From: Ectocarpus siliculosus
Taxonomy: Eukaryota; Sar; Phaeophyceae; Ectocarpales; Ectocarpaceae
NCBI GenBank assembly: GCA_000310025.1
Contig: FN649734.1
Coordinates: forward strand, 958,112-1,022,111
Direction: 5' to 3'
Length of the DNA: 64,000 bases
Shown here: positions 33 through 55,305 of the stretch, one piece after another
Position numbering within the stretch: position 1 is the first letter of the stretch
How the letters are laid out: the number at the start of each line of letters is the position of its first letter
Program-made: the position numbers and the translations under genes
Notes under the pieces: model-generated
Databases searched by the model: none
What the model saw: only the letters and a program-made list of their open reading frames with translations
What the model was told of the DNA's origin: nothing

Positions 33-895
33 TTGGCGACTACAGTACTGTGCCGAAAGCAAGCAAGAGTACCGCTCATCATGGCTGCCTTATCCGAAAA
101 TCAAATCTCTGCAAAATATTACGTAGTATCCGAGCCTTCGGCGCGGACAGCGTGCTTGGACCCAGCACGGCACCTCCAACCAAAACCTCTGACACGCAGG
201 AAACACATCTTATCCACGATGGTACCCCCTTCATCCTACAACCTCCCCCCCCGAACTGCAACAGAGGATCTACAGCGGTCCAACAAGAAATTGTCGGTTG
301 CCTGTGCCGAGAGAGAAGAACAGAATCTAAGGAAAGAAACCAAGGATACGGAGGGTCTAGAAGTGTACGGAATGTTGAAGAACGTAATAGGGTTCAAGGA
401 TTACCTACATGGACCAATGGACGCAGGGACAAAGCTTAAGGTCAAATTCAGGACCGGGGACATAGGCCTTCGAGAACGTCGACGAAGACATAGGACGGTA
501 GACGACGAAGACGACAAGTTCAGATGTGATTGCGGCTCCGAGTGCGAAGACGGGGTTCATGTAGTCGCGGAATGTCAGTTGTACGAAAAGGAGCGGGAAG
601 TGTACATGACTGAGCTGGGAAAAATAGAAGGGGGGTACAGGGAGATGTTTGAGGCATGGAAAAGAGAGAAGACGGTAGCTGTACTGGGGAGTAGGAAGTG
701 GTTTGAAAAGGCGGGAAGGGATATCGTTAGGATAGACGGACTAGGGAAGATATTTTTGAGCCACCTTTGTCAAAGTAGGAAGGAACGATTGGCTATCGGT
801 GACCGGTCCTGTGGGAACAATGCTCCGTCCTGTCGAGGACGCGTGGTCAATGGTCTAACCGCTAAGGCATGCCAAACACAAGAGTACCCCCCCCC
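33..895 (+). mobile_element. 3' end of a non-LTR (LINE-type) retrotransposon, 5'-truncated
   Basis: Open frame that reads like the C-terminus of a LINE ORF2 protein. After a basic region it contains a Cys/His zinc-knuckle-like motif, CDCGSECEDGVHVVAECQLY (about bases 528-590), of the CxC..EDxxHVxxxCxxY type found after the reverse transcriptase of many LINEs. A charged helical tail follows. No reverse transcriptase or endonuclease domain is present: the copy is 5'-truncated or runs off the left edge. The 3' end is a conserved non-coding-looking tail (about 805-885, core GTGGTCAATGGTCTAAC) followed by a C run at 886-895. The same tail recurs in the short repeats at 10-15, 50 and 55 kb and in a fragment at 23.2 kb. 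The frame stays open across the tail into the first exon of gene A. Family assignment rests on the zinc-knuckle pattern and the position of the tail. Confidence 0.7.
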
Positions 896-932
896 CCTGA
901 ATTTCAAATACCGTCGGGTGTGGCTTCCAGGC

Positions 933-3900
933 ATGATCGAGCATCACTACGAGAGACACCGGAACCCCAGCCCGGCTGAGATGCGCCGCCACGACAGCAA
1001 CGCTAGCGGCTCTAGGAGAAGCACAAGAAGAAGGGCGGCAGCACGACAAGACCACAAGCAGCGTCGAGACAGAAGCGCGACCAGCAGTGGGCGGCGGAGT
1101 GCAAGTGCTCTGGATCGGAGGGTACGGCAAGCGCTCTGGACACCACCGACGCCCCAAGAACGCCGGCAGCAGCAGCAGCGGGAGCAACGGCGGCGGCGCC
1201 AGGCCAGCAGGCGCGAGGTTGCTTCCAGCGGGCAGCAGAACCGAGCCCCTCCCGCTATCCCCCCCCTACCGAAGGTGCTGTTCCGTCCACCTACCGCCGC
1301 CACAGCCACTGGACAACAACAACGACGCCGGCCACAAAAACAGGACCAGCAACAACGGCAGGAACGGCAAGGGTCGGCTCCGAGGAACATCGCTTTCGTT
1401 GTCGCCCCCGGCGGAGAAGAAGACGGCCACGTCGGTAACGGCGGCCGAGTCAGCAGAGGGAAGTCGTGGTCGTTTGCAGGGACTCCAACGAGCACGGTGT
1501 TCTCACCTTCTTCTGCGGTGGCCAACCCCTTAATCTCAACGAGGTGATCTTGTTGTAACATAGTCTATGTTCGTTTTGTTGTTGCCTCCCGTGACATCGT
1601 TGCTGATAGTTGCGTGCAGCCACATTGTCCGACCATCAAGCAGGACGGACAGCTCAGCAGTTGTTTCATCGTGTGGTACGATGACCGACTTGAATTTCTA
1701 CGGTCCCCGAGCGGCATGTGGCGATGTCCCCCCTACTGAATTCTTCATTTCCTGAAGTACACTTTGGAAAAGGCGCATCTTTAAACGGGATCGGTCACAA
1801 CCATACCCTTACATGTAGCCACCCTGTCTTATCCCGAATGCCGACCTTCTCAGGTACACCCAGCGTTCTGCCTATTCGTTTTATAGCAACAGCAACAGCC
1901 CGACCAGCACCAGCAGCGCCGACGACCGAGAAGAAACAAAAACTGCCGACGCGAAAGCCGCACCCGCGAGCACCTCTGGCGGTGGCGACGGCGGTGGCCG
2001 CAGTGATAGCGACAGCGGTGGCCGCGGTGGAGATGTAGGGAAAATGACTCACCCTCTGCCCCGTACCACAAGTGTAACGCACAAGACCGACGGCGAAGGA
2101 GGTCGAAGGTTGGACGCAGACGACGGTGCCCGAGGCAGGGTCACCACCTCCGCCGCCCATGGCGCCCAGAAACAAGGACACGCCGGCACCGATCGGCGCA
2201 CCGCCCGCGTCACCGTTACTGCTAGAGCTACGGGAGGGCTTGCCTCGGACGTGGGGGGCAGCCGTAGAAGGGCCGGCAGCGGCCGCCGCCCGATCTACCG
2301 CACCATGAGCCTGCGCGGGCGGTCTATCTTCTCCGTGGGCGGGGGGAAAGCTGGCACGGCGGAGCGCCGGGCTGTCTCCATGTCTTCCTTCCGCAGCAGG
2401 GGAGAGTCGCTGCGCGAAGACGGCGAGTACTACCGCTCCTACTCCTGGCGCGCGGGAGGGCGAGGCGTGGCGAGCCGCGTGTGCTCGGTGCTGTCCGCGA
2501 GGTGGCTCTTCCCCAGGAACTGGAACAAGAAGGACTGGGGGGCGAAAAAGAGGAAAGGTCGGACCAGAGGGCGGGACGGCAGCAGCAACGTATCCCGACC
2601 GAGCACCTACACCAGCGGAGAAGTGGTCGGCGTCGTCGACGGCGGAGAATTCTCCAGCAACGAGGACGGCAGCGATGGCGAGGACGACGACGACGACGAC
2701 GGCGACGACGTTGTCGATGTCACGAGTTCGATGGATATCCTCGTCGGCGGAGCACCAGGACGGGCCGAGAAAACGCGCGCACTAGGCGGAAGTGGTGGTG
2801 GCCCTCGTGATGAAGGTACCAGCCGTCCTGCCGCCGGCGAGGGAGGGAGTGCGACAGCGGGCAGCGGCAGCGTCGGACCGGGGACAACGGCGGCCAGTGG
2901 AAGGAAGCGGATTAGTTTCCCTCGCTCCGCTTTCCTGGGATTCAGCCGCAGCGCTCAGAGGTTAGAAAAGCTAGACGAGTCAGAAAATCCGGGAATGCCA
3001 GGGAATATCCCCGGGATAGGTACCAAGGGATTTCGGGAGGTGTGCGCGTCATTCACGATAGGTCGTCCACGTGGTCTTTTGCGGTGATTCCATAGCTTCA
3101 CGATAGTCGAGCCTCTACCCCGATCCGGGACTTCGTCCTGCCGGCCAAACATTCCACCAACAGCACCAACGCGGCATGATTGTAGTGCCACTGTGTCTGT
3201 CCTCAAGCAGCTTCTTTCACTCCGACCTCTGATGCCATTTTCTGAGATTCGCATGTAGGCAGCAGGCCACGCTCTGCTCTTAGGTGGTACCCACGAAATG
3301 GGCAGCTAATCTTATCGACAAACAACCAATGATCTCACCCGCTCGTTGGTTTGCCTGGCCGCCCGCTCCCGTGCATCACTCACTCACCCAGATCGATGAG
3401 CAGCTACTCATTTGTTCAGCACGACCCGGCTAGCCGGGCTGGTGGAGTTGGAGGCGGAGATGGCGACGGTGCTGGGGGCGTTCGTGCCTCCCAGTCGACA
3501 CCTGCGGCGGAGGCAGGCCCGGGACTTGCCGTTGATGCGGGCAGGGTGAGCGGAGGCATACGTTCGAATCCTACCACCGTTATTTTTTCAGTTCCACCGA
3601 TGATTGTGGCCGAAAACCTCTGCTTCGGGGAATACACGTGGGTTGGGTCTTTTCATTTGCCGTTGATGATCCCACGACGGAGGGATACGGGCAACGCGTA
3701 CTCCGAGAAACAACCCTTGAGGAAACATCAGCCTATCAACTTCAAGAAAAACAAACAGGCAGCAGGGAGCATACCGTCGTCATTGCTACAAGTAGTTTCG
3801 CAAGGTGATTTGCATATCATCCGGGTTGAGTGTCAGGAATTTTGAACGTTGTGTACGTTTCTCCCTCCTTGGCGTTCTGAAATCAACGTAATGCCATTGC

Positions 3901-6461
3901 CTGATGCCCACTCCGGTTCGTGCTAGATCTAAATAGAAACCAAACAACGTTGCAAACACGACACATCGGCAAGGGCATGGATCGTGTGTCGCCGACATCA
4001 CGCTAGTGGCAGTATTTGCCAGGGGAAGGTTCGAAATTCAGCACCTACTGTTCTCATCGTAGTGTACGTGCAGCCCCACCGAGAAAGCAAATTTGCCTAT
4101 TATCGATCAACTCCACACTCATGGTGATCCCGTTCACCTTTCTCGTACGAGCTCTTCCGTGGCAATGGGGTCTTGAGGGCGCATCTCTAGAGTTCGCTCT
4201 CTTCGAACGCGTCTACTTTGTTTGGAGACTTACTTAGTATTGGGGCATGAGTGCAACGACTTCGTTGTGCATTGCGCAGCACTGGCAACCGCACCGCTCT
4301 CCGCCTCCTGCCCCCACGTATGGCCATCCATGTGAGCATTTCGACCAGCCCTCGTGGTTGTGGCAGCAATCCCCCCGGAGCGCGTACGAGGGGTGGGAAG
4401 CGTTGATCGTCCATTCCCCGTGCGAGGAACAACCGCCCGGCAACAAACGAACCACACGTTAATGAAACCTCACAGACCCTCTAAAGCCGCCAAGTATTTC
4501 TTCGAAGAGACACTTGGTGTAAAACGATCCTGCAGACCCGAGAGTCTCAATCCAAGACCTGGAGGTTACCCTTCAACAGACCATGGGTGCGTTATACAGG
4601 CGTTTTCCCTTTCACTATGTAGTTCCTGCTGCTGCAACGCCAAGTTGCGTCAACGAGATCCCGTCCCCGTCTCTCACGACCCCGGTACATTCTCTGGTCG
4701 GACCTCTCCGACCAGGGGACACTACCGGCGACATCTGTTGACTTCGCCGGCGGCGGCGAGGAAAAGGCGAACGGCAGCCCCAAGGATAATCGAGCAGCAC
4801 CACGTGACAACGGTGGCGACGGTGACGTGCAATACGTCAACTTCAACGGCCATGGCGGCCGGGCCGGCGGCGTTGTTGCCCTCAGGAGGGGGGACGGCGT
4901 CGCTGCAGTGGAGATAGAGGGCGACAGATCGGTGTCCACGACTGGGTAAGACCTACCGGCCATGTACATACCTAGGAAAACATTGCGAGAAAATTTCCAC
5001 AGTCTCGGTCTGATCATGTGGCCTGTGACGCCAACGTGAATCTGCCATGGCATGGTCGAGACGAGGGGCAGCGGTCGCGGTGAAAGCGGTGCGCCGTCTG
5101 AGGCAGGCCGACAGCAAGCATCTTTTGAATCGTATGTTTTTCGTTCGCCGCCTTTGCAAGAGGCTCGTTGCTCGATTGCATCATTTGCTTGCCGTGTACA
5201 AGGTTGTGGGCGGAAAAGTTCATGCTCGACGCCATCTATTATGCCATGGGAGGGTTTGCGAATTTTTCGCCACGTACCTAATCTCGCTTTCCCAATCGAC
5301 GGTTCGCACTTGTCACAACATAGGACTGCCACGCAGCACCTAATGCCATGCACCAATTTTCGCCGCTGCGCGTGCCGCCACGCGATCTGCAAAGATGGGC
5401 AGGCACGCAAGTGTTTGGTAGTGCGTAGCAACAACACAGCAGTGTCGACAAGGACATGTCCCTACCAAGCTGACAACCCCCCGAAAATTGTTCAAGAAAT
5501 GTGATGTCCCTCCCTCCCTACCTCCTGTACTGCCTGCTGTTCGACGTTGCCGTGTTGGGGTGCACCTGATTTCACGCTGGCTTTCACTCAATACTCAGAT
5601 ATTCCTCGTTCTTGAAGCCTTTGCAAGCAGAACAGGACGAAGAAGAAGCGAAGCGGAAAATGGACGCCTTACTGTTGGTAAGTGCAATAGTGAATCCTTC
5701 ACCTAAGTACTTCCTCGTTTCACTAGGGACGAAGCAGTTGAGATCGGTAGCGTCGCACTACGCTGTAAATTGACGTCGCACTGCTGTTGTGCTTGCAATC
5801 GCGGTTGCGACGTTCGTCCACCAATCAAGCCCAAATTTGACAACCTCTATATATTGCGGACAATGACTCGACCCCACAACTGCGCCGATATGTTAATAGA
5901 GCGGGCGGAGGGTGCTGGTTTCAGGTCCTCAATCGGAGCATCGATCCCGTTTGAGATTTTTGTCTAAATAGCGGAACGTTGACACTGTCGGTATTTTTCG
6001 AAAAATATCTTGTCCACAACTGTAACAGTCTGGCAGGTGGAGATAGGGTGGTTCAGCGTTGGAAGAGGGTTATGTCATCCAGTTGGCTTTCAAACTTCGA
6101 CCCCTCCCCGACGATACGAAACACGCCGAGAGTTCATGCATTGTCCTTGAGGCATATCATCGCGTTTATATGCGTGTCATGGCGTATCGGTAGTCCAAGG
6201 GGGGCTTCGTAGGCAGTAACGGAAGAATTGCGTCCTTCAAATTCCTGGCGCAGCGGAATCACATGTTAAATCATTCCGACACGCTCAGCTTCGCTCATAT
6301 CTAAATATTCCCCAAGCAATAAAAGTATCCCGTCCTGGATCAATCTCGTCTCCCTCGCTTGTAGAGGAGCCGCGTGCATACGCATGGGAATCCCGTGGTA
6401 CCGGCGGCAGCCGGCGCAAGTGGAGAGGGAGAAGGAAGAGGAGGAGGAAGCGGAGCAGTAG
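933..6461 (+). CDS. Gene A: spliced gene for a disordered, low-complexity protein of unknown function
   Basis: Proposed exons: 933-1543, 1854-3039, 3420-3545, 4623-4945, 5599-5677, 6411-6461; 791 aa. Phases fit at every junction (2, 0, 0, 2, 0). Donors include AG|GTGATC, GAG|GTGTGC, AGG|GTGAGC, TGG|GTAAGA and TTG|GTAAGT; acceptors include CTTCTCAG, TTTGTTCAG and TACTCAG. The N-terminal half is rich in Arg/Gln/Ser, then Ser/Gly. About residues 460-480 form an acidic run (DGEDDDDDDGDD). A basic stretch lies just before it (KKRKGRTRGR). The C-terminal part has a Gly/Asp/Asn-rich exon and ends in a short charged helix (EQDEEEAKRKM). I recognise no domain. A nuclear or scaffold role would be a guess. 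The ATG at 933 follows a possible acceptor (CTTCCAG at 924-930), so the true first exons may lie outside the window, with the LINE remnant in an intron. The last exon (17 codons) is the least certain; an alternative end is the stop at 3087. Confidence 0.55.
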
Positions 6462-9200
6462 AGGGAGCGGAATAACAATCCATGACGGGAATCATCTCTG
6501 GGATCAGCGGCGCTGTCGGTTGGTTGCAGTGTGCGCGATCGCCACGGGACCACGTAATTGGGAATGGATAGAGAACATCGACAAGTCGTGTGTGGAAAAA
6601 ATCATGGCGTCCGTTATTCATCAGGTACACGTGCTGCGATTACCAGGGTAGATGGCGGTGCGCCACGGAGACCCTCAGGTTCGTTTTGCATCTCCGGGGG
6701 GTATTGACAATCAAGGAGCGTGAACTTCACAAATCTTTCCGTGTTCTCGGGTGCAGATAGTGGTCCACTAGGCCGCACGAGCCCAACCAAGTTTCTTGCT
6801 GTTGTTGGAGTAATTTTCTGTGAAGTACCCAGGCGTTTTGCCTGCAATCCCCAGCAATGACAGACTGAGGCGGATTTCGTCACCGCGTATTCTATTCATT
6901 CCGTAGGCCTTGTTTTCCGATCTCGAACAATTTCAGCCGCTTGGAAAAGCGTTGCCTGTGGACTCCGAAGATGTAGACCGCTTCACTTTACAGCGACGGA
7001 CCCGGCTAATTATAGTTCAGTTTTCGTTGATCGGGACGGCCTGTTGTTATTCGGTTTGAGTTGCCATGGTGTACTGGTACGAACATACTTCTCACCCATC
7101 TGTCATGGGAGGTGGGTGTGTTAGTGAGAGGGAACACCGGATTCCGAGTAGCCTTTCAGTGATGTAGTGCTGTGCTGCTGTGCACAAGGCCTCTGTTTGA
7201 GGCACAAACACCCCGGAACTGCAGCGCCGCATTCATACTGGATCTTCAATTTGGCGGTACTGCTGTGGTGCCGTCGAATGTAATTTTTTTGAGGTGCACT
7301 CATTTGACCTACAGTATGTATGCCCACGTCCATGCAACGGAGGTCTGCATGAAAGGCGCATCGCAACGATTTGCTGTTGTTACCCCCAAGATTCCCTAGG
7401 TGCCCTCCGGGGCTTCGAGGTGGCTTAGTTTTCACAGAGTTAGACAATTGTGCAAGGAACCACAGCACATGTATTACCCAGTATCGCGCCAGGTGTCAGG
7501 TAGTAGTAAACGCTGCCATTCTCCGACCGAGGACGCGGCACAGTAAATGCCGTAGGCCTGTTTTCTGGATCGCCTTGCCGTCGAGCGGGGGGGTGGAATG
7601 CACCCAATCAACAACGTGCAGTTTTGTCTCCTCTCTTTTCTACTTCAACGTGTTGTAGATACTTATCAAGCACCTGTCCTGCCTGTCATTCTTGTGTGTG
7701 AGATGGATGCAGATTGCGTACTGTAGACTACATTTGGCATGCAAAATGCGTGTTGCAGTGCGTAGGGTCGTAGTTCCGCTTGGAGGATGTAGCAGAGAGC
7801 GACGTTCGTTTCTCAAGGCCTATGCACACGGCGCTTTGTATTTTTTAATGTCAGTGTCGTGACCAGTACACTACGTAGTCAATGTGTACTTGAAGAATTT
7901 CTTGGGAGTACAAGAAACGGCGGGGAAATCATGTCACGACTCCTGGCCTGGGATTCCACGAGATGCAGGGGTGCAAGACAGCAGAGCCTAATAGCATCAC
8001 ATGCAAGTTTCTCCTGTGTTCTCGTCCCATCCATTCCTACTACATTAAGCGGAATAATTTCATGCACCTGCGGGGGAAACAGGCCAACGGTTGTCGGAGT
8101 AGACTGCGTATACTTTACATGCCTGCCTGCACTTTCGCACGCAACGAGGGTTCTTCCCTGCCTGTGGATTCACTCCCGGCCATGCGCAGTCAACGTTCTG
8201 GTCTGAAAACTACCGAAGAGAGGACGAGTACATGTAGAGAGTCAGAAGGGAACGGGGTTACACGTTGAACCAGCAGGGCGACCATCCAAAAGATTCACAT
8301 GTGTATCCCCGAAGCAAGTTCACAATCACCAATATCACATGAGGAACGCATATTTTACCATAGAGGAAAACGGAACAGAGAGGTCACCCTTCGCTCTGCT
8401 GTGACTGGATCGAAACCTTCCAATCCGATGGTTTGGATTCAATTGGCAGAAGCTTCCCCACGCGCGTGTTTACTACTGTGAATAGTAGCAACCGATGAGC
8501 CCATGCCCGCAGAGCCTGGGCAGCGGCGCACAACCAACGCGATCGGCGCGTTTGTGCTGCTCCGCTGGGAAAAGGGGTGATGAGTCGACCTGGCGGTGAT
8601 CCAATCGCAAGCCGCCCATACCTCGTACAGAACCACGTGGGGAACTTGCATTTTCCCACCGTCTTCAGTGAACGAGAGACTCGGCGGTCGTTGAAAAGAT
8701 AGGAGAATACAATGCCACGTTGCCTACAGTATGTGTTGTCCTACTTCACGAAACCCTGGATGCGCGTAGGGCGCTAGTAGTCTTCAGGAAGATACAGGAG
8801 CTGTCCATGGGCTGCTTTCCTGATCGGAGAAAGAGAGGAAGACTGGGCGGCTCGGGTCACAAGCAATGACGTGAACTCGGTAGGAAGCCAAGTGAGTTCA
8901 TTCTTGTGCTGAGAAGGTTGGACAAATCTGTAAACGATGATGGAAGTTTGGGGCTACTTGACGCCACATCATAAGGGTGATCTCCCACAAATCAACTCGC
9001 TCGATATCTTGCTTGAAGTACCGCCCTTGCCAGCAATATTTTGTACTGGAGACAGCGCAGTGTACCACTCAATCAATTGGCAAGGGCTTTGCTTGCTGTG
9101 CCATGACCACGAGCAAAAATCGGAGCAATATCGAGAGGGCCACATGAAAATACTGTGTTGCTCTCCACCCTGAAAAATCCAATCTCCCACACTACTGACA
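6462..9200. other. No gene recognised
   Basis: Only short overlapping open frames with no consistent composition, no convincing exon chain on either strand and no recognised repeat. Probably the 3' flank of gene A plus intergenic DNA. Confidence 0.4.
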
Positions 9201-9212
9201 GTTTTCCCAAAT

Positions 9213-10290: not shown

Positions 10291-10782
10291 TTAATCCCGG
10301 CGAATCTGCTGCAATAGACGGGGTGTGATTCGTCCATGTGTTTCTCGAAATATTCCAAAAGAGAAAAGGAGCGAAATGTTTCCCTGAGTGGTATTTGCAG
10401 TATTTATTTTGGCAATGCTATTTGCTCCAGTGGTGGTGGAGTAACCTCGTATTTGCTCCACCATGCAGATCTCCACCCACAGAGCTTCGATCAACCTCAA
10501 ACGAATTGCATCGTGTAGCTATTGACTACAGCTTCTGCAACGCTACTTGAATGCTAAATCCGACAGGTGTCTGAAGAGATATGCTGAAAGGGGGGCTCCG
10601 CAGCATGTCAGGAAGCAGTGATCGCCCGAACCTCCCTCTACACAGCGTTCATTGGCCTCTAACCTTTTTCGTCGTGTCCACACGGTCTATACCGTTCTTC
10701 CAAGCTATCGGACACTCCCATCTAATTAATATGTTCCCGCAGAGATAAGGTCACCAGAGGGGGTTCCGCAGTATCAAGGGGG

Positions 10783-11330
10783 GGGGTGTTTCATACTCAT
10801 ACTTATTGTCGTGCATGCCGTAGTCGTTAGACCATTGACCTCGCAACCCTACAAAGTCGAGACGGAGCACGTCGGGTTTTGACCGGACCAGGCTCTCACA
10901 TCACCAAGCGCAAAGCGCCGTCAGGTATTCGGCGAGTCGCATGACGGGTGAGCTGCATCCTGCTAAGGGTGTTCGGCATCTTGTGCGTACTTCCTTGCCT
11001 ACGGATGACAGGTGCGTATGACTAAATTTATTTTCTGGTGCTTTGACTTCCAGAGATAGTTGTATGTAGCTGCCTCGAGGTTGCTTGACCATTTTAACAC
11101 AACGTAGTGCGATCACCCCCCTTGCACGGAGTGAGGTTTCTCGACCCCGCACAGCATGATGTACTCGACCACCGTTCATGGTTACCGCAAAAAAAACAAA
11201 AATGCAATAAAAATATATAGCGGTAACTAACCTGGCTGCCGAGCTCACGAAGTGATCGGCTTGTTTTACAACATCGCTGCGAAGCGACGAAAGCCCAACC
11301 CCGATGACAAACACCGGGGGGGGAGAATCT
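10783..11330 (-). mobile_element. Tail-sharing short retroelement, copy 1
   Basis: Read on the minus strand: head with GGTGTTTGTCATCGGGGTTG, then CTCGGCAGCCAGGTTAG, an A/T-rich loop, GCGGTAACCATGAACGG, the body (TTCCGCAC-like linker, CTTCTGGAAGTCAAAGCACC), the CGCTTGGTGATGTGAGAGCC block, and the 3' tail GGTCAATGGTCTAACGACTA followed by a C run. It is SINE-like: about 0.55 kb, non-coding, with a LINE-type 3' tail. No RNA polymerase III promoter is obvious, so the origin of its head is unknown. Confidence 0.75.
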
Positions 11331-11692
11331 TGGGGGGGGAGGTAAATGTCAATTTTCCCGGTATATGTCCCGCCGCATAGTGGAACCATGCCTACCTCTG
11401 CCCGCACTCTGTTGGCACGGCTCACAGCTATCATTCAAGCCATCATGCACTCCAATCGGGCCAGTGGGTGCAGAGAAACGCCCACCCGCGGAGGTTCAGT
11501 GACTCGAAGGGGGGCTCCGCAGCATGTCGGGAAGCAGTGGTCGCCCGAACCTCCCTCTACACAGCGTTCATTGGCCTCAAACCTTTTTCGTCGTGTCCAC
11601 ACGGTCTATACCGTTCTTCCAAGCTATCGGACACTCCCATCTAATATGTTCCCGCAGAGATATGGTCAACAGAGGGGGTTCCGCAGTATCTA

Positions 11693-12321
11693 GGGGGGGG
11701 GGGGTGTTTTCATACTCATACTCATTGTCGTTCATGCCGTAGTCGTTAGACCATTGACCTCGCAACCCTACAAAGCCGGACGGAGCACGCCGGGTTTTCA
11801 CCGGACCAGGCTCTCACATCACCAATCGCGAAGCGCCGTGAGGTATTCGGCAAATCGCATGACGGGTGAGCTGCATCCTGCTAAGGGTGTTCGGCATCTT
11901 GTGCATACTCTTCCTTGCGTACGGATGGCAGCTGTGTATGACTTAATTTATTTTCTGGTGCTTTGACTTCCAGAGACAGTTTTAAGCATTGTGAAACTGC
12001 CTCGAGGGTGCTAATAATACAACGTAGTGCGATCATCCCCCTTGCACGGAGTGAGGTTTCTCCACCCCGCACAACATGATGTACTCGACCACCATTCATG
12101 GTTACCGCAAAAACAAAGCAAAACAGAGGGAAAAAAAACCCGGTAACCTTGGTTGCCGAGTTCACGGAGTGAATAGGCTTGTTTCACAACGTCGTTACCA
12201 AGCGACGAAAAGCCAATCCCGATGGCAAACACAGAGGGGGGGGCTTGTTTCACAACGTCTTTGCCAAGCGACGAAAACCCAAACCCCGATGGCGAACACC
12301 GGGGGGGGGGGGGGGGGGGGG
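11693..12321 (-). mobile_element. Tail-sharing short retroelement, copy 2, head duplicated
   Basis: Same structure as copy 1. The ~60-base head (CGACGAAAACCCAA...GGCGAACACCG on the plus strand) is present twice in tandem (about 12178-12240 and 12241-12305). The outer end is a long G run merging into low-quality sequence. Confidence 0.75.
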
Positions 12322-12763
12322 GGTTTCTTCCCCTAACTAAAAACCTGCCTTTTTTAATATTTTTTCCCCTTTTCCCCCCCCCCCCCAAAACCCGGGACGG
12401 AACCCCCCGTTTTTTTCTTGGACCAGGCTTCCCCCACCCCAATCCCAATTCCCCTTTTGTTTTTTTTCATACTCCATCAAGGTTCCACCCCTCCTCTCCA
12501 AGGGTTTTTTCCATTTTTTCTTTCTTTTTTTTCTTCCGGGAAAACCCCCCCTTAACCTATTTTTTTTTTTCGGCGCTTTCCCTTCCCAAAAAATTTTTTA
12601 TCTCTTTTTAATTCCCCCNNNNNNNNNNNNNNNNNNNNNNNNNNNNNNNNNNNNNNNNNNNNNNNNNNNNNNNNNNNNNNNNNNNNNNNNNNNNNNNNNN
12701 NNNNNNNNNNNNNNNNNNNNNNNNNNNNNNNNNNNNNNNNNNNNNNNNNNNNNNNNNNNNNNN
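12322..12763. other. Low-quality sequence and assembly gap (N run 12619-12763)
   Basis: 12322-12618 is full of stretched homopolymers but still follows the order of the tail-sharing element on the minus strand: CCCGGGACGGA, then TTGGACCAGGCTT, then CATCAAGG-like words, matching GCCGGGACGGA, CCGGACCAGGCTC and CATGAAGGG in good copies. It is therefore a badly read further copy of the repeat, not novel sequence. The 145-base N run follows. 12764-12900 is also degraded and matches R2 at 10.63-10.77 kb. Confidence 0.8.
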
Positions 12764-12906
12764 AGAACCTCCCTTTACAGAGCGTTCATTTGCTTTTAAC
12801 TTTTTTTGTGGTGTCCACACGGTTTATACCGTTTTTCCAAGCTTTTGGACATTCCCATTTAATTAATATGTTCCAGAAAAAATAAGGTCACCAGAGGTGG
12901 TTCGGG

Positions 12907-13745
12907 GGTTGGGGGGGGGGGGGTGTACTCATAGTCGTGCATGCCGTAGTCGTTTGACCATTGACCTCGCATCCCTACAAAGCCGGGACGGAGCACGCCG
13001 GGTTCTCACCGGACCAGGCTCTCACATCACCAAGCGCGAAGCGCCGTGAGGTATTTGGCGAGTCGCATGAAGGGTGAGCTGCATCCTGCTAAGGGTGTTC
13101 GGCATCTTGTGCTTACTTCCTTGCGTACGGATGACAGCTGCGTATGACTTAATTTATTTTCTGGTGCTTTCACTTCCAGAGACAGTTGTAAGCACTGTGT
13201 AACTGCCTCGAGGAAGCTTGACCATTTTAACACAACGTGGGTGCGATCATCCCCCGTTGCGCGGAGAGAGGGTTCTCGACCCCGCACAACATGATCTACT
13301 CGACCACCATTACGGTTACCGCCAAAAAAAAAAACGAGGTAAAAAAAAAAAACGTTAACCTGGTTGCCGAGTTCACGAAGTGAACTGGCTTGTTTTACGA
13401 CGTCGTTGCCAAGCGACGAAAACCCAATCCCGATGGCAAACACCGAGTGGGGGGCTTGTTTTACAACGTCGTTGCCAAGCGACGAAAACCCAAACCCCGA
13501 TGGCAAACACCGGGGGGGGCGGCTTGTTTTACAACGTCGTTGCCAAGCGACGAAAACCCAACCCCGATGGCAAACACCGGGGGGGGACGGGGGGGGCGGC
13601 TTATTTTACAACGTCGTTGCCAAGCGACGAAAACCCAACCCCGACGGCAAACACCGGGGGGGGGGAGGTGGCTTATTTTACGACGTCGTTGCCAATCGAC
13701 GAAAACCCAACCCCGATATCGAACACCGGAGGGGGGGGGGGAACC
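12907..13745 (-). mobile_element. Tail-sharing short retroelement, copy 3, with expanded head
   Basis: Full tail and body (12907-13380) followed by five tandem copies of the head instead of one. Tail core TAGTCGTTTGACCATTGACC (plus strand) at about 12944-12968. See the minisatellite entry for the head array. Confidence 0.75.
13388..13740. repeat. Minisatellite made from the retroelement head, five units of 66-77 bp
   Basis: Units start at 13388, 13454, 13522, 13599 and 13671. Each contains GCTTGTTTTACAACGTCGTT, AAGCGACGAAAACCCAA and GGCAAACACCGG, and ends in a variable G run that accounts for the length differences. The unit reads as a repeated peptide in all three plus-strand frames, which explains the three overlapping open frames here. 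They are not genes. Confidence 0.85.
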
Positions 13746-13753: not shown

Positions 13754-14276
13754 GGGGGGGGTCGAGCATGCCGTAGTCGTTAGACCATTGACCTCGCAAC
13801 CCTACAAAGCCGGGACGTAGCACGCCGGGTTTTCACCGGACCAGGCTCTCACATCACCAAGCGCGAAGCGCTGTGAGGTATTCGGCGAGTCGCATAAAGG
13901 GTGCGCTGTATCCTGCTAAGGGTGTTCGGCATCTTGTGCGCACTTCCTTGCCTACGGATGACAGGTGCGTATGACTAAATTTATTTTCTGGTGCTTTGAC
14001 TTCCAGAGACAGTTGTAGTCATTGCGTAGCTGCCTCGAGGATGCTTGACCATTTTAACACAACGTAGTGCGATCACTCCCCTTGCGCGGAGTGAGGTTTC
14101 TCGACCCCGCACAGCATGATGTAGTCGACCACCATTCATGGTTACCACAAAAAAAAAAGCAACCCCCCCCCCGGTAACCTGGTTGCCGAGTTCACGGAGT
14201 GAATAGGCTTGTTTCACAACGTCGTTGCCAAGGGACGAAAACCCAATCCCGTTGGCGAACACCGGGGGCGGGGGGG
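13754..14276 (-). mobile_element. Tail-sharing short retroelement, copy 4
   Basis: Lies head-to-tail with copy 3. Tail core at about 13770-13795, body at 13850-14140, A-run loop at 14148-14160, head ending in a G-rich tract near 14276. Single head unit. Confidence 0.75.
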
Positions 14277-14800: not shown

Positions 14801-15339
14801 CCCCCCCCCCCACCGGGGTTTGCCATCGGGATTGGGTTTTCCTCACTTGGCAACGGGGTTGGAAAAGAAGCCGATTCCCTTAGTGAACTCGGCAACCAGG
14901 TTACCGTTTTTTTTTGACCTTTGATTTTTTTTTGGTGGCAACCATGGTGGTTGAGTACATCATGCTGTGCGGGGTGGAGAAACCTCACTCCGCGCAGCGG
15001 GGGATGATCGCACTACGTTGTGTTAAAATGGTCAAGCGTCCTCGAGGCAGTTACACAATGACTACAACTGTCTCTGGAAGTCAAAACACCAGAAAATAAA
15101 TTTAGTCATACGCACCTGTCATCCGTAGGCAAGGAAGTAGGCACAAGATGCCGAACACCCTTAGCAGGATGCAGCTCACCCTTCATGCGACTCGCCGAAT
15201 ACCTCACAGCGCTTCGCGCTTGGTGATGTGAGAGCCTGGTCCGGTGAGAACCCGGCGCGCTCCGTCCCGGCTTTGTAGGGATGCGAGGTCAATGGTCTAA
15301 CGACTACGGCATGCACGACCATGAGTACCACCCCCCCCA
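14801..15339 (+). mobile_element. Tail-sharing short retroelement, copy 5, inverted relative to copies 1-4
   Basis: Plus-strand copy: head GGGGTTTGCCATCGGGATTG, IR arm AACCAGGTTACCG, T-run loop with a short insertion, body, and tail with GCGAGGTCAATGGTCTAACG, ending ATGAGTACCA. CCCCCTAGA occurs immediately before the head (14792-14800) and after the tail (15340-15348). This fits a target-site duplication within R2. Confidence 0.75.
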
Positions 15340-15499
15340 CCCCCTAGATGCCGCGGAACCCCCTCTGGTGACCATATCTCTGCGGGAACATTCCTCAATT
15401 GGAAGTTGGGGTTTCAGCCAGCGCAATCCCGAAAAAAGCAACAAGGAAATCCGGTCCAAATTTCGATACTTCAACCGAGTTAAAAAAACGACCGAAATC

Positions 15500-15755
15500 C
15501 CTACTGGAATCAAGTAAAAAACTGATCGAAATCCACTCTATAAGCAAGTAAAAAAGTGATCGAAATGGCCTCCGTAGTCAAGTGAAACATGTGACCATTA
15601 ATCAATACTCAAATCAAGTGATTCGTATCACAATTTTCAATACTCAACTCAAGTGAAACATGTGATCATTTTTCAATGCTCAACTGAAATGATTCGTGTC
15701 ACAATTTTCAATACTCAACTCAAGTGATTTGTATCACACACTCAGTTTAAGTGTT
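15500..15755. repeat. Imperfect tandem repeat, units of about 38-40 bp
   Basis: Variants of AATACTCAACTCAAGTGA, each followed by AACATGTGATCA or TTCGTATCACAA, repeat about five times. Shorter related units (AAGTAAAAAAGTGATCGAAA) lie at the left edge. Confidence 0.7.
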
Positions 15756-23174: not shown

Positions 23175-23335
23175 ATATGGAAACGTTGTTGAGCCACCAT
23201 CGACGTAGAAGGGAGGAACAATAGGCCATCGGTGATCGGTCCTGTAATAAAAATGCTCCGTCCTCTCGAGGGCGCGAGGTCATTGGTCTAACAGCTACGG
23301 CATGAAAACCATGGGTACCCCGCTCCCCGGAAGCA
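23175..23335 (+). mobile_element. Severely 5'-truncated LINE fragment (3' tail only)
   Basis: GAGCCACC, GGCCATCGGTGATCGGTCCT, TGCTCCGTCC, GCGAGGTCATTGGTCTAAC and GGGTACCCC follow the order and spacing of the LINE 3' end at 765-895, with only the last few protein codons included. A typical dead-on-arrival insertion. Confidence 0.7.
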
Positions 23336-47800: not shown

Positions 47801-50800
47801 AATTCTACAATGCGGTCACCATTGGTTCTGCAAAGTGGGTTGAATATGGTTTGGGGATCGCTTTGGCTTGTTCTTGTGTACTTCAGAAGTATATACCTAA
47901 GCCGTAGGTGTGGGTATTTCTTCCCACTGTGTCTGATTCTTGTCACAGGCACGCGAAGCCACGGAGCGAATGCGTCGGGGAGCCGATGGAAGCGGTGGAG
48001 ACGGTGACTGTTCGGAACATCGCTCGCGAAATGGTCGCATCGACCCCAACAGCGATAAAAACGGCGCCAGAACCGCGCATCGCGGTGTAGCAAAACAAGA
48101 TCCAGAGGGACAGCGTGCGGTGGTGGAACTGGCGGCCGCGGCCCCGGGAGACCGTTTCCAGCCTTTGGACTTGCTCTGCTTGGCGGCGTTTCATGCCGAT
48201 AACGGCGCATGGTCGGACTGTTTAGATGTTCTCGGCACGGCGCAGGAGGTACGAAATGCTGTAGACGAACAAGGAGGCGATGCCAGCTGTTTCAATCGAT
48301 CACGCACCGGTGTGCCACGATATTTTCGACAATCAACCGTGGTCCATTTCCGCAGCATGCAGGCGTATGCAAGCTGTACTTTCTGTCAGACAACCCTTTT
48401 TCTCAACACTGACGAAGAGACAAACCCATGAGCATTCCGACGAGGGCCACCGCCACATTTTTCGATTCTGTATCAGACATCAATTGCCCCTATTTTCGGT
48501 GTTTTGGCCAGTCCTAGTCAGTTGCCCCTGTCTTCCTCGTTGTCGCCGACCCATATACAAACAGGTGAGCCGGACCGCCCGAGCGGCAGTTAGAGCCAAA
48601 GCAAACGAGCTGCTGCTCGGCAGGACGGAGCGAGGCGAGGTAGTCGGCAATGTTGGGGCAACGACCGGTGAGGAATGACCCCTATTCTCCGTTCCTTGTG
48701 TGTCTGCCAAGAATCTTCTTCCAATGTTCGATCTCGGTAGACTGAACTTGGAGCATGTTGTCGGCAAGAACCATTCAAAACGGGGCATGTTTAATTGAAT
48801 AGTGGTTGGTTTAGAAAATGCTGCGACAGTGTTCCATGAATCCATTATTCGGTTGTTTGTTGCCGCACAGCCTTTCGTAGGAGCAGGTCTTTTCTTTTCG
48901 CCTTCGGGAATGCGTTGGTTTTTCTCCGGAGTTTCATTCCAACTGCTGGGAGTCCCTTGGCCATGATAGATTCCTTGTCTCCGTCCTCCGTCGCTGTTGT
49001 TCCTTGTGCTCCGTTTTGTGTTGGTCAAACAGCAGATAATGCCTAATCTAGATAGTGTTGCCAACGGGGTACCTTGGGATATCAGTTGCCGTGCCACCTT
49101 GTACCTTGGCCTGGTTGCGCCTGCAAGCGCCGGCTTCGGTCATCTAGATTTTCTACGAACCGTGTATTGGGGACGGGTGAGGCCCGTTCATCGCGCAACC
49201 GCCACATGTATCACGAACGGAAAAATAAGAACGACAACATCAATAACGTCAAGGATATGTGAACGCGGACCGCTGAACATCGAAAGATCAACTGCAACAA
49301 TCGGCAACCATCGTGCGCAGGTGTTGCTGGAGCCGGGCTAGCGTCCTGGCGACAGGTCGCGGCAGAAAACTCCGAGGCTACGGAGCGAGCTGACGAGGCT
49401 TCAAAGGCGTTGAGGGGCTGCTACGAGTCTGCGGTGGAAGCTCTTGGCCGCGCAGGGCGCCACAAGGAGGCCTTACAGGCAAGTTTCGGGAATTAGTTTT
49501 GCCCATCGTTCCAGGTCCCACTGCTGCCGTGGCCAACGATGTAGCCCTTGCCAGTATGCAGGCTCGAGGCAATTTCGTTTTGCTGTTGTGCGCGTCTGTT
49601 GGTCAAGATGACGCCAACTGTAGAGATTGTGCAAAAGACGTAAGCAACGATCTTGTGTTGCGTTTGAGGTTGGACATTTTGCTGTGTTGGCCCTGGTGCG
49701 GTTGAATGTTGAAGAGGTTGTCATGAAGGACTTCAATAGTCCCGTAGAGATGGGGTGAGGATTATTCAATGAGTCAAATATTACGAAATGTTTGTGAGAA
49801 GGGAAATTACTCTTTGCTTGGGTCCCGGTTCGAGCCCGTGGGCATGTTGGCAATTCTTCTCATGGTTCCTGCAACTGTGATTATTTTCTTGAGTACCGGC
49901 ACCGTGAAAAAGCCGACGGGTCGTCCTACGACCCTTTGAGGGCGTCCTTGGGCGTCTTCCATTGAACGCTTTCATATCAGTAGTGTTTTTTCGCCGTATC
50001 CATAGAACATGTGCTTTCGATATGTGTTTCTCAATTACCATCCCAACATCAAATGCCGTGATCAACAACGTGGTCGCTAGGTACTCGAGGAGGGCGCTTC
50101 TGTCACCGTCAAGCACGGGCTTTCCATGGACCCTGCCTGCTTCGTCTCTGCCCTTCGTTCCTGCTGCTGCAACGACACCGATTCCGAAGATTCTGGCTCA
50201 GAGGCAGGGGCTGCTATGCTCGGCGAGATGGAGGCACGAGCTGGGGTAGTGCCGGATTCTTGGTGTACCAACGTCGTCATGGAGGTACCATACAACAGCA
50301 AATGATTGCTTTGTTCTGATCTTCAGCGAACAAAAGAGCCTGCAGCTTTGAGATGTTAGGGGTGAGGAGGCACCTGTGCCAGCATCTCACGTTCGGCTTT
50401 GTTCTATTGCCCCGTCTCGAACTCCCCCCCCCCCCACCCTTGTCCTCTCCGTAGCGCAACGATGTTTGCCATCGGGGTTGGGTTTTCGTCGCTTGGCAGC
50501 GATGTTGTAAAACAAGCCGATCACTTCGTGAGCTCGGCAACCAGGTTACCGCTTTTTTTTTTTTGCGGTAACCATGAATGGTGGTCGAGTAGATTATGTT
50601 GTGCAGGGTCGAGAACCCTCACTCCGCGCAAAGGGGATAATCGCACCACGTTGTGTTAAATTGGTCAAGCACCCTCGAGGCAGTCACACAGCGCTTCCAA
50701 CTGTCTCTGGAAGTGAAAGCACCAGAAAAGAAATGAAGTCATACGCAGCTGTCATCCGTAAGCAAGGAAGTAAGCACAAGATGCCGAATACCCTTAGCAG

Positions 50801-52609
50801 GATGCAGCGCACCCTTCATGCGACTCGCCGAATACCGCACGGCGCTTCGCGCTTGGTGATATGAGAGCCTGGTCCGGTGAGAACCCGGCGTGCTCCGTCC
50901 CGGCTTTGTACGGATGCGAGGTCAATGGTCTAACGACTACGGCATGCACGACTATGAGTACACCCCACCCTTGTCCTGCCCGAAGCTTTTCCTTACGAAC
51001 AATGTTTTCGCCGTCTGCACAGTAGAGCGAGGCGTTCGTGACACAAAGTCAGCCGCGTGTAGCATACTCAAGTTCGTTACTATTTCCCGTACCACGCCTC
51101 TTCTGTCCCGCCCGCGTATCCACCAACTCTTACCCACTCCCCCCATTGATCACTGTTATCATGGCTGGCAGTTCCTCTGAGGACCCCTGTGTACCCCTGG
51201 GGGTGTTGTGACGTCCGCTACCCTAGCCTTCACGTCCGCGTGTATTTTTAAACCTGATTGCATATGCTCTGTTTCTATGCACCCGCCACTAATCACTGAT
51301 CAATCTATCCCTCTCCCCAACGATGTACCTGCGATGGCCTTGCTCATGCTGTCGCTCGTGTTGCAGGCGGCTGTTAGAGACGAGGAGTGGTCCCTAGCAT
51401 CTAGACTCTTCGACGAAGCCGAAAAACGACATATGTCTGGACATCACGATAGGGGTAGAGGCGCGGGTACGAGTGGCGATATCGCTGATGGGGGCAAATC
51501 CCATCGGCTAGCAGGCCCTCCAGGAGCGTCTGATGCCCGGTCATACGACCGCGGGCGTAGAGAGATGAGAAAGACGGCGATCGACACAATGGCCCCGACG
51601 GCTCTGACATACCGCTTAGCTCTGCAGGTAGGCCGAGTAAACTTCATGTTCAGAGCATATGTATAGCACGGCAACGGCTCGGAGACAGTATAGGTTGAGC
51701 TTGTCCTTGTTCGGATCAGAAGCAACCCGGAAGAGACAAATACACTGTTCGGATCAGAAGCAGCCCGGAAGAGACTACCTCGCGTTTTGATTAAATTGTT
51801 GTTTGCCACGTACGCAATGTGCTTTTGTGTTTCGGGGCCACTCATATTCCACACGTGGGCTGAATATACAGAGCAATCACCGCCAAGCAATCACCTACCT
51901 CCCGAGCATTATATATTTCAAGTACGGATCAAGATTGTTGTTGACTATTTTGCTAACCAACACACGATGTTTTGCGTAGGCTGAAAAGCCAACAGCGACG
52001 CTTCGAAGCAACATCAAAGTACTTTGCTTGTGGATTTACCGCTGTCGTATCTCATTTTCTCATTTCCAGGCGTGCGTCGGGGCAGCTCCGTCGGAAGACA
52101 AAATGGCAGAACGAGCGCTTGAGCTAGTCCGGAAGATGGTTTCGGACCTCCATATGGGCCCAAGACGGGAGGCATTTTTGCTGGCACAGCAGGTGACGAT
52201 GCTAAAGTTGTTACTTTTGACGATGGTTTTGCAGTTTGCCGTGTTGCTTCTAACTACGGTGACTCCTCTTCTTGGCGGCAGCTAGGGCTGGAGATTGTGG
52301 TGACATTCTTGATGACTGTGACGCGGAACGGCGATCTATTGAACGCGGTCATTCAAGCTGCATATGAAGATGGCGACAAAGCTTTCTGTCGCATTCTTTA
52401 GGGGATGCGATAACCATCGCATCTTGTGCTCGATCTCTGGCATGCTGGCCCAGGTGTGCGCGAAATCAGCCAAAATGGCTGTTGCGGTCGAAATTCGGCG
52501 GCTGGAGACCGAGGCGCAGGACAGACACGAAAACGAGGACTTTTTGCGGCAATGGAGAGAGCGACGCAGCTATAGGCTAAACTGTGCCCCTTCCACGCTG
52601 GCCGGGTGA
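41824..52609 (+). CDS. Gene C: pentatricopeptide-repeat (PPR) protein, probably mitochondrial
   Basis: Exons: 41824-42223, 42559-42704, 42858-43027, an uncertain exon near 43160,43628-43814, 44284-44503, 44873-45115, 45836-46036, 46466-46586, 47270-47428, 47949-48248, 48565-48667, 49321-49478, 50081-50284, 51367-51627, 52070-52192, then 52282-52401 or 52454-52609. Phases close except between exon 3 (phase 2) and 43628 (phase 0). The N-terminus MLRSPTLLAAAALRSGSRRR is Arg-rich, Ala/Leu-rich and free of acids, as in mitochondrial presequences. PPR helices include DWREALRVLDDV, RWQEAFLLLETMQERGVTTD, LNSTLKACGSAGQVK, DVVSFNIAIGACARAG, LSYNSTLSACGRA, RAGRWDQALSWVDAAVDAG, FSYSSIIDALARQ and HKEALQVLEEG. 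PPR proteins bind organellar RNA one nucleotide per repeat; the target here cannot be read. Intron 49479-50080 is GC-AG (CAG|GCAAGT). A short retroelement lies in intron 50285-51366. Acceptor CAGCAG at 44868-44872 is a NAGNAG site. Confidence 0.85.
45307..45380 (+). repeat. Direct repeat in an intron of gene C
   Basis: GATTGCC(G/C)TTTAGTTTGCCTCGCCAACTC-type unit occurs twice, about 39 bp apart. A recent local duplication. Confidence 0.7.
50432..50977 (+). mobile_element. Tail-sharing short retroelement, copy 6, with perfect 15-bp target-site duplication
   Basis: CCCCACCCTTGTCCT at 50432-50446 is repeated exactly at 50963-50977; the element between them is 516 bp. Order: leader CTCCGTAGCGCAAC, head GTTTGCCATCGGGGTTGG, IR arm AGGTTACCGC, T run, IR arm GCGGTAACC, body, CGCGCTTGGTGATATGAGAG, and tail GCGAGGTCAATGGTCTAACG ending ACTATGAGTACA. 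No coding capacity. It lies in sense orientation in an intron of the PPR gene, so it is tolerated and presumably spliced out. The clean target-site duplication shows retrotransposition of this unit alone, without R2. Confidence 0.9.
51708..51776 (+). repeat. Direct repeat in an intron of gene C
   Basis: TGTTCGGATCAGAAGCARCC followed by CGGAAGAGAC occurs twice in tandem with a short spacer. Confidence 0.75.
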
Positions 52610-53411
52610 AAGTTGAACGGATCAGATTTTGTTGAACAGAGTGCAACAAGGGCGATTGCCAAGGCAGCCCTGCCAAGAGAGAGGAAAACATGCAGCTACA
52701 GGATATGGGAGACTGTAGTACTAACGCCTAGAGGAGAGCATTTGAAGGCAGCACAGGACATGTAGAGCTAGAGCTGTGTACTTCTGGGAGTTTCGGCGGC
52801 CTTCTAGGGATTCCAGCGTTGATTCGCATATGGGAGTGTAAACTAGGCTATTGAACCCCCGGGATCTAGTATGTTGATGCCTTCACATGTGCAATGGTTT
52901 TGGAGGAAATTGTCGAGAACCTAGCTGCTGTGTCGGTTTCGGTTTCTTTGATGTGCCAGCAAGCTGTCGATACATCTCCATTGTGTGATACGGGCAAAGG
53001 AGTGCATTCAGCAATTTCTACAGCTGTGGTGGGATTTTCTGAACAAGTACGCGTTGCATATTCGAAAGAGCATGTTCCCAATATACTTTTTGTGCATTTT
53101 TCTCCTGGCCACTCCGTTGGAGTAAAGCATTGCGGATGGTAGGGGGCAATGAAGCAGGGTGGGGTGTTACATGGTCTACTAATTGTTGCGAAAGGTTGGA
53201 GGAGCCTTTCGGGCCTTTCAGCTCATCTCATAAACATGACCGCAACTTGAAAGGCCTGGCAGACAGTAAGGAAGCTTCCAGTCATGTCCAGTTCACAAAT
53301 CGTTTTCATTTCTACAACACCGTGCGCGGTTCAACAAGAGAACCTAAATCGACTACAGAATAATACGATTTGGTTTAACTACATATTCTTTTTACCACGC
53401 GGTGTACACAT
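52610..53411. other. Convergent intergenic region
   Basis: Between the 3' ends of the PPR gene (+) and the minus-strand acidic gene. No further feature recognised. Confidence 0.4.
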
Positions 53412-54243
53412 TCACATCTCGACATCCTCCAAGTCATCAACGTCGAAGTCGATGTCATCATCGTCGAAGTACCCGTCTCCTCCGCCACTACCATTGCTGC
53501 CGGTCACACCAACACTACCTGGCATGTTGTCCTCCGGCGCTATTTTCTCTCTCGATTCTCTAGACCCACTATGTCGGTCTTCACCCAATTGGTGTGTGTC
53601 TACGTCATCGTTTCTCCCTTTCGTAATCTCTTCCCCTTGTGGGCTTGCATCTTCGTTTGGCCGGCTGTTAGCGAGTTCTTGCGCACGTTCAGTCTCTAGG
53701 TCGATATTTTCATCGCTACTCTGCTCTCGTTCCGGTCTCGCATCAGACGCGGCAATGATCACATCGTCTTCACCTCCGCCACCAATCTTGCGCGCTTTTT
53801 TCTCTCGATCCAGGAAGCTACGTGGTGGGGGATATAAGAAGGGAAGCGTGCGATTCTTTGAGCTCGTTGTGCTTTTGCTTCCGCTAGCATCGACGGTAGC
53901 CCCACACAAAGCAAGCGTCTCAATGAGCGACTACGCCGGTTCAGCATACCGAGGAATTCTTTAGTTGTGTGACTACTATAGATAGATAGAGGCGACGGTT
54001 TCTACTGTTAGGTTTTGGTTTCAATCCACGCTGATGCGTCCATCGCTAATTGTTTGTATTTAGTGTGATACGATCACAACGGGTGGCATACGACTTGGCT
54101 CCTGAGTTCTGAGTATGCGAGGGAACTGAAATACTGGCTGCATTGGATCTGCAGCGGGCACTACCTGACGAAGTCTCCGTCATCTTCACTGTCCCCGTTA
54201 TCAACTCCTGACGGTGTTCTTCTTAACGGCGTCGAAGTCGAAC
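53412..54243 (-). CDS. Gene D: 3' part of a gene with an acidic C-terminus, function unknown
   Basis: Two likely exons on the minus strand: 54243-54165 (acceptor TTACCCACTTCAG, donor GTCAG|GTAGTG; encodes TPSGVDNGDSEDDGDF) and 53930-53412 (acceptor CGGCGTAG), ending at TGA 53414-53412. The last 165 residues are charged, with ERAQELANSR and a strongly acidic end (FDDDDIDFDVDDLEDVEM). The joint is ambiguous. The upstream exon's phase leads into a second open frame (53930-53759, SLRRLLCVGLPSMLAEAKAQ) that stops early, whereas the long acidic frame needs phase 0. Either a splice site is misassigned, a small exon is missing, or one base is wrong. The 5' end of the gene is not identified. Confidence 0.5.
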
Positions 54244-54765
54244 CTGAAGTGGGTAAGCCGCGAGATTGAAATGTTCGATTTTTTGCTGCCAAGACTGTAC
54301 CAGTCAGTTTAAACTACATATTTTTCGGAACGTTTTGGAAACATTCATTCAGTGCTCAGCGAGCACCGTCTGGAGCAACATTAACATAATTCGAAGTTAT
54401 GAGATGGACAATCACCGCAATCGGTGAGGACGCTTGGAAAACATGTTTAGGTATGAAAATAGACTATGCACTTAAGTGGCAAATACTCGCAATACATTTT
54501 GATCGTCATTGTCCATATTTTCACTATAGTATCCAAAGGATCGAAAGGCCAGCCAACCGGGGAACCCTTCGGCCGTATCATGCCTGGAGACTCTAAGCGT
54601 ACCTCTGCCCGCGATAGTCACCCCTTGCTCCTCATTGCGGTCGTCATCAAGCGAAGGGATCTCGGGAAAGTCCTGCTAGAGCAGGGTGTTGAAAGCGTGT
54701 CGGGGTCGGGGCGCTGTGTGATCGTTGGAGTTCTGTACCTCGAAAGACGATACAGGCCTGAATAT
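54244..54765. other. No gene recognised
   Basis: Intergenic or 5' part of gene D. No exon or repeat supported. Confidence 0.35.
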
Positions 54766-54774
54766 TGTGATATG

Positions 54775-55305
54775 CCCCCCCCCCTGGTGTTTGCCGTCGG
54801 GGATGGGGCTTCGTCGCTTGGCAACGACGTTGTAGAACAAGCCGATCATTTCGTGAGCTCGGCAACCAGGTTATTTCCGCTTTTTTTTTTTTTTTGTCTT
54901 GTGTATTTTGTTTTTTGCGGTAACCATGAATGGTGGTCGAGTAGGTTATGCCTTGCTGGGTCGAGAAACCTTACTCCGCGCAAACAGGATAATCGCAAGT
55001 TGTGTTAAATTGGTCAAGCACCCTCGAGCCAGTTACTCAGTCCTCATAACTGTCTCCGGAAATGAAAGCACAAAAAAATAAATCAAGTCATTGGCAGCTG
55101 TCATCCGTATGCAAGGAAGCACAAGATTCCGAACACCCTTAGCAGGATGCAGCGCACCCTTCATGCGACTCGCCGAATACCTCGGGGCGTTTCGCGCTTG
55201 GTGATGTGAGAGCGTGGTCTCGTGAGAACCCGGCGTGCTCTGTCTTGTCCATGTAGGGATGCGAGGTCAATGGTATAACGACTACGGCATGCACGACTAT
55301 GAGTA
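54775..55305 (+). mobile_element. Tail-sharing short retroelement, copy 7
   Basis: Head GGTGTTTGCCGTCGGGGATG after a C run, IR arm CAGGTTATTTCCGC with T-run loop, GCGGTAACC, body, and tail GCGAGGTCAATGGTATAACG ending ATGAGTACCCC. It is more diverged than copy 6. The right end runs into a C homopolymer and poor sequence, so no target-site duplication can be read. Confidence 0.75.

Follow-up and report, generated by a model that had tools for sequence, protein, structure and literature searches.

A retrotransposon pair of Ectocarpus siliculosus with a common 3' tail and probable insertion at poly(C) tracts

A stretch of 64,000 nucleotides from the genome of Ectocarpus siliculosus (assembly GCA_000310025.1, contig FN649734.1, positions 958,112 to 1,022,111 of the forward strand; hereafter the window) harbors pieces of a long interspersed nuclear element (LINE) together with copies of a non-coding element of ~0.5 kb. 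Comparison with copies elsewhere in the genome revealed that two LINE lineages, LINE-A and LINE-B, and this short element end in the same tail of ~70 nt with a predicted 6-bp hairpin. The insertions are found at C tracts, and those duplicated targets that can be read start with the C run. The elements are quite probably a stringent-type pair of a LINE and a non-autonomous partner, both of which would use target-primed reverse transcription to enter poly(C) tracts, the C run past the tail being largely duplicated target site. We also lean, with less assurance, towards the fuller description of a homopolymer-C-targeted LINE/SINE pair (SINE, short interspersed nuclear element) of the RTE-X clade, with a self-propagating target and a recognition hairpin that would be translated as part of the LINE protein and act as an RNA signal for both partners.

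A consensus of the short element was built from 18 full-length copies elsewhere in the genome, which are 90-96% identical to it. When the window was searched with this genome-derived consensus, seven non-coding copies of ~0.5 kb were obtained with 86-96% identity. These copies and the LINE pieces of the window are:

260-897, + strand: 5'-truncated LINE-A with the C-terminal part of the reverse transcriptase (RT) open reading frame (ORF) and the tail; 92% identical to LINE locus L002 over 641 nt
245-252 and 887-897: C runs around this LINE-A piece, before its 5' end and after its 3' end
819-886, + strand: LINE-A tail common with the short element, comprising the hairpin CGTCCT..AGGACG, GGTCAATGGTCTAAC and GAGTAC
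23176-23330, + strand: 3' fragment of an older LINE-A insertion that carries this tail too; 81% identical to L002 over 158 nt
10800-11316, - strand: short non-autonomous element, copy 1; consensus match, with a 3' flank common to the copies at 11.7, 12.9 and 15.3 kb
11719-12232, - strand: short element copy 2, local duplicate; consensus match and common 3' flank
12905-13445, - strand: short element copy 3, local duplicate; consensus match and common 3' flank
13453-13740, - strand: four additional 5' monomers of 59-60 nt preceding copy 3, with C runs between them (sense strand)
13761-14264, - strand: short element copy 4, with a C run after the tail that adjoins the monomer array of copy 3
14814-15344, + strand: short element copy 5; C run and TAGA present at both ends
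50460-50970, + strand: short element copy 6; a 15-nt duplication, CCCCACCCTTGTCCT, flanks both ends
54786-55326, + strand: short element copy 7; C10 upstream and C21 downstream

All seven short elements described in an earlier note on this DNA were recovered. Four of them (10.8, 11.7, 12.9 and 15.3 kb) have the same sequence past the C run, so these four are local duplications of one insertion and the window contains about four independent short-element insertions. A segment of ~0.9-1.2 kb that includes a short element is present as a tandem duplication and partly as one inverted copy (10588-12923 and 15345-15390). At 12301-12763, past a G23 run, the text is homopolymer-rich and degraded and then passes into an N gap; its similarity to the short element is faint (42 nt, 74%), and it probably reflects low read quality across a further copy and not real sequence.

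The LINE piece at 260-897 matches the short-element consensus only at positions 448-528 (76% over 83 nt), the fragment at 23176-23330 only at positions 473-528 (80% over 56 nt), and LINE loci L001-L005 only in the tail (positions 448-541), the other matches being words of 13-16 nt that are mostly C runs. The 3' tail that the earlier note had described as common to a LINE end, a LINE fragment and the seven short elements is thus real, with the match confined to the last 56-83 bp. Among the ordered blocks that it had listed in this tail, GAGGTCAATGGTCTAAC (up to 3 mismatches, 10 window matches against 0.15 expected in shuffles) and CTACGGCATG (up to 1 mismatch, 13 matches against 3.2) are over chance, whereas GCTCCGTCC alone (up to 1 mismatch, 26 matches against 16.7) is not clearly so, and four shuffles reach 26. 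In the 189-Mb genome the exact tail occurs 902 times in the short-element form and 369 times in the LINE form, and reversed-pattern controls gave 0; an exact tail match was absent from IMG/VR in a search that may omit records near this genome.

Several non-autonomous RTE elements retain the 5' end of their LINE (PMC3747384), and by analogy the short element might have arisen from the LINE by internal deletion. Such an origin is very improbable here, since L001-L005 match the consensus only at the tail and the LINE 5' end in L002 is different. The candidate was rejected for similarity that lies only in the tail, as judged in the LINE parts outside a middle of ~0.7 kb hidden by N (L004; the gap in L002 is larger). 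For these same parts the check named in the earlier note, identity in the tail only with independent 5' regions, was borne out, and its proposal of a non-autonomous element sharing only the 3' end with a LINE that encodes endonuclease and RT is supported.

LINE-A encodes an endonuclease (PF03372, 1.9e-11) and an RT (PF00078, 4.9e-34), and thus has the apurinic/apyrimidinic (AP)-type endonuclease plus RT by which RTE-X is recognised; the clade name for this LINE is borrowed from PMC12477816. The copy in L002, which looks full-length, measures 4832 nt including an N gap of 2043 nt. LINE-B is a second lineage, whose identity to LINE-A amounts to 66% where the matches are long (442-488 nt), 74-76% in a single 94-nt stretch and 75-79% in the final 80-91 nt. 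Between the two lineages the tail is thus only slightly more conserved than the best of the internal stretches. In LINE-A the ORF ends 7 nt ahead of the C run (L001, L002, L004), and in LINE-B the longest frame across the tail stops 57 nt past the tail start in 6 of 10 loci, leaving GTACG. The shared tail is thus the end of the ORF in the LINEs, and the short element has it as non-coding sequence.

Junctions were examined in loci from the whole genome. Short-element loci were the first 100 of the 902 listed tail places, on contigs C1-C3 and thus not random, 40 of which formed the exploratory and 60 the held-out set. LINE-A loci were the best-scoring ones; of 20 fetched, 11 had a 5' junction, which was picked by hand. 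LINE-B loci were the ten of its type listed on contigs C1 and C2. The criterion for a C run, at least 6 C within 30 nt before the 5' junction, was fixed before the held-out loci were fetched. Of 51 exploratory loci 45 were used, with L007, L011, L018 and L048 left out for an unreadable flank and L015 and L039 for an unparsed 3' end; of the 60 held-out loci 59 were used, with a junction finder that also steps back over upstream monomers, which the exploratory finder did less well.

In the exploratory loci a C run was present at 38 of 45 5' junctions as compared to 0 of 41 control windows located 150-180 nt upstream. By class, the counts were 14/16 for full copies, 15/19 for truncated copies and 9/10 for LINEs, with upstream controls of 0/15, 0/18 and 0/8 and downstream controls (60-90 nt) of 2/14, 0/17 and 0/8, respectively; the background in the window was 27/2123. 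The held-out short-element loci gave 39/59 against 2/53 upstream controls, and held-out full copies 32/37 against 1/31. Removal of the full rows located inside a monomer array (3 exploratory, 2 held-out) leaves 36/42 and 37/57 overall, and 12/13 and 30/35 when only full copies are counted. Among 42 truncated short elements and LINEs with a C run of at least 5, the junction lies 0-11 nt past the run in 36, and in these 42 loci the 25 nt preceding the run showed no motif. The window has 29 C or G runs of at least 8, of which 23 are no more than 25 nt away from one of these elements; with this margin the elements cover at most 8.4% of the window. Insertion thus appears target-specific, into one sequence type, and more weakly so for held-out truncated copies.

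Duplications at both ends of the insertions were sought in the pooled exploratory and held-out loci (105). A first, loose search for flank repeats (longest common word by non-C letters) did no better than mispaired controls (28/45 at a length of at least 3, against a mean of 47% and a maximum of 64%) and gave way to tests that start from the C run and to one that makes no use of it. A repeat that starts at the C run and reaches at least 10 letters, with runs collapsed, was found in 17 of 105 loci, as compared to a mean of 0.8% and a maximum of 5.9% in 1000 mispaired shuffles. Repeats of at least 8 nt for which no C run was required occurred in 14 of 105 (200 shuffles: mean 1.4, maximum 5), and 12 of these 14 start in or directly after a C tract; of the remaining two, L100 contains no more than four Cs, and in L037 the match is elsewhere in the flank. 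The LINE in L002 is flanked on both sides by CCCCCCCCCGGGCGAATTC, with 10 Cs before and 9 after, and the duplication in L026 is CCCCCCCCATGGTCGACAT. The C run plus the unique letters that follow it are present at both ends in L002, L017, L023, L026, L035, L053 and L064.

Some insertions lie at C runs of other copies. In L064 a LINE lies within the C run between two short-element monomers, with both halves of the host present, and in L023 the duplication of a short element, CCCCCCATCTCACA, equals the flank of a LINE-B tail. In L063, L070, L071, L101, L110 and L124 one element adjoins the tail C run of another and may have arrived either before or after it. Targeting of C tracts would account for elements sitting in each other's C runs. 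That the junction C runs are assembly or read errors, or a general C-richness near repeats, is highly improbable. The window does contain a low-quality stretch and an N gap beside a run of 23 (12301-12763), but controls at the same loci gave only 0/41 and 2/53 upstream and 2/39 downstream, and unique letters past the C run are duplicated as well.

The hairpin-plus-core pattern of the tail occurs at 2594 places in the genome and at 0 in the reversed control. For 51 distinct tails, whose left arm was partly set by the pattern used to gather them, the stem arms were counted by hand anchoring because a MAFFT alignment of three tail types had placed the loop gap wrongly. Nearly all have a 6-bp stem (mean 5.8-6.0 of 6 pairs by class) with the arms CGTCCT/AGGACG, CGTCTC/GGGACG or CGTCCC/GGGATG according to class and loops that are CTCG-like, GAAA or GGCTTTGTA. 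The evidence from covariation is thin, as cross-class combinations of arms also give 5-6 of 6 pairs. Ten of 42 truncated short elements (8 from the 40 exploratory and 2 from the 60 held-out loci) have their first nucleotide at consensus positions 470-474, for which the binomial probability under uniform spacing is 2e-11. The hairpin occupies positions 453-473, and these starts are thus located at its 3' foot, as though reverse transcription had often halted on meeting it. Recurrent insertions of ~50 nt from this foot were also observed (L010, L017, L023, L027, L035, L043), several with target duplications of their own.

A number of observations weigh against a targeted pair of this kind. Held-out truncated copies, the cleanest class, have a C run in just 7/22 (control 1/22) as compared to 15/19 in the exploratory set, and a C run was also seen in 2/39 downstream control windows (60-90 nt past the tail). 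In full-length copies a 5' C run belongs to the element itself, as seen in L082 and L113, where it separates the duplication from the body, and also between monomers; their run is therefore not purely target, and truncated copies, LINEs and duplications carry the argument. At most loci the duplication past the C run is not readable, the repeat of L091 is preceded by a C run at the 5' end but by a CA repeat at the 3' end, and the 3' run is sometimes the longer one (L046, 11 vs 6). The target evidence consists of junctions within the genome of one strain. With respect to the hairpin, the whole tail folds better than shuffles for LINE-B only (z -3.2; LINE-A -0.6, short element -0.4).

The C run could alternatively be a tail encoded by the element or added by a polymerase, with insertion at random targets. 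C runs at 5' junctions would then belong to the 5' end of the element itself or would have been added without a template while the second strand was made. The C runs that full copies carry at the start of the element and between the 5' monomers, the 3' runs that at times exceed the 5' runs, and the 15 of 22 held-out truncated copies that have no 5' C run of at least 6 agree with such an origin. We nevertheless consider it unlikely, since internal 5' ends still have C runs (exploratory truncated copies 15/19, LINEs 9/10), since end addition does not give the run plus unique letters on both sides that is present at seven loci (L002 and others), and since the elements in L064 and L023 sit in C runs of known host elements. 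The C run, which the earlier note took for an unusual tail of the element itself, thus appears to be largely target site, present on both sides; the longer 3' runs indicate that the RNA may bring some Cs as well.

Insertion at C tracts by a LINE/short-element pair could proceed as follows. The LINE endonuclease would nick the G-rich strand of a C/G tract, and the exposed 3' end of the G run would pair with the C-terminated RNA. The RT protein would hold the tail hairpin of the LINE or short-element RNA, and copying would start. A cut of the second strand at the C run or a few nt beyond would then yield duplications that carry the C run. With the C run duplicated, each insertion would make two landing sites out of one. 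The short elements, probably the most abundant transposable element family of Ectocarpus, may in this way create landing sites for themselves. A general consensus on the function of simple repeats at LINE and SINE 3' ends is lacking, according to PMC13295347; in Ectocarpus the repeat and the target look alike, and a base-pairing model is therefore directly testable.

The partnership itself has very probably been published already, as RTEX-N1_Ec32 (PMC12477816, Genome Biol 2025), to which our elements were likened by description and not by sequence. In the covered passages of that paper, RTEX-N1_Ec32 of Ectocarpus is ~600 bp long with >6000 copies (2.48 Mb), has a 3' end common with RTEX-1/RTEX-2_Ec32 and is possibly a SINE with a 5' region of unknown origin; organism, size class, copy number and a 3' end shared with autonomous RTE-X LINEs agree with the pair described here. 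Neither insertion at C tracts nor a hairpin in the tail is mentioned in the same passages, which are also silent on the tail being part of an ORF. Similar to the Ectocarpus pair, the Bov-B LINE/Sauria SINE and plant RTE pairs have 3' ends common to LINE and SINE, simple-repeat tails and a characteristic insertion signature (PMC13295347). The signature there is Tn-TA, and Bov-B copies rarely have flanking targets similar to the 3' repeat, whereas the Ectocarpus target resembles the tail C run and no motif was seen in the preceding 25 nt; the C-tract pair is thus a variant of the RTE-type pair. Green-algal RTEX LINE families also end in simple 3' repeats, but those listed in the covered part of PMC3747384 are (CA)n, (CAA)n, (CCAT)n, (ACAATG)n and (CTTGTAA)n and not (C)n. 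The stringent-type LINEs ZfL2-1 and ZfL2-2 similarly have a hairpin in the 3' tail (PMC4176376, as far as covered), whereas the Ectocarpus hairpin lies within LINE coding sequence and its binding is putative. The titles and beginnings of abstracts that literature searches listed, a weak basis for a negative, included no description of poly(C)-targeted elements among those without long terminal repeats (non-LTR). Microsatellite-targeting non-LTR retrotransposons, reportedly the subject of work by Kojima and Fujiwara in 2004, are said to target simple repeat DNA, as opposed to the homopolymer C tract found here.

The short element of ~520 nt consists of a 5' monomer of ~59 nt, an inverted repeat around a T run, a body of ~300 nt and the tail. 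The monomer has a C run directly ahead of it and frequently occurs more than once: 1, 2, 3 and 4 monomers were found in 22, 10, 4 and 1 of 37 held-out full copies, two of which have one further upstream monomer. Tandem monomers with C runs between them, 1-4 copies heading full-length elements, were also observed in L008, L014, L032, L042 and L045, and are reminiscent of monomeric LINE promoters. The inverted repeat GGTTACCGC...GCGGTAACC (9 bp; 50544-50573 in the window, and in other copies) surrounds the T run. RNA polymerase III (Pol III) is terminated by an internal T run, and the repeat and T run would form a hairpin and a Pol III stop. An A-box-like TGGTCGAGTAG and a B-box-like GGGTCGAGAAC, picked by eye against the consensus of these boxes, are candidates for the Pol III promoter, derived from tRNA, 5S or 7SL, that defines a SINE in the strict sense. 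With one short-element copy, an Rfam search (E up to 10) gave no tRNA, 5S or 7SL match, and ARAGORN, run with the bacterial code for a tRNA-derived head, found nothing. 5' truncation and target-site duplications are present in the family, the latter readable in a minority of loci. Judged by its sequence, the short element is a SINE in the wide sense, i.e. a LINE-dependent non-autonomous retroelement, having a 3' end common with a LINE and an unrelated 5' region.

Elsewhere in the window, an AT-rich unit of 71 nt is present as a tandem pair (15578-15719). The Ectocarpus origin of the DNA is supported by an exon found with PF00195, which is identical in 91 of 91 residues to PDB 4b0n, a polyketide synthase III from Ectocarpus siliculosus.

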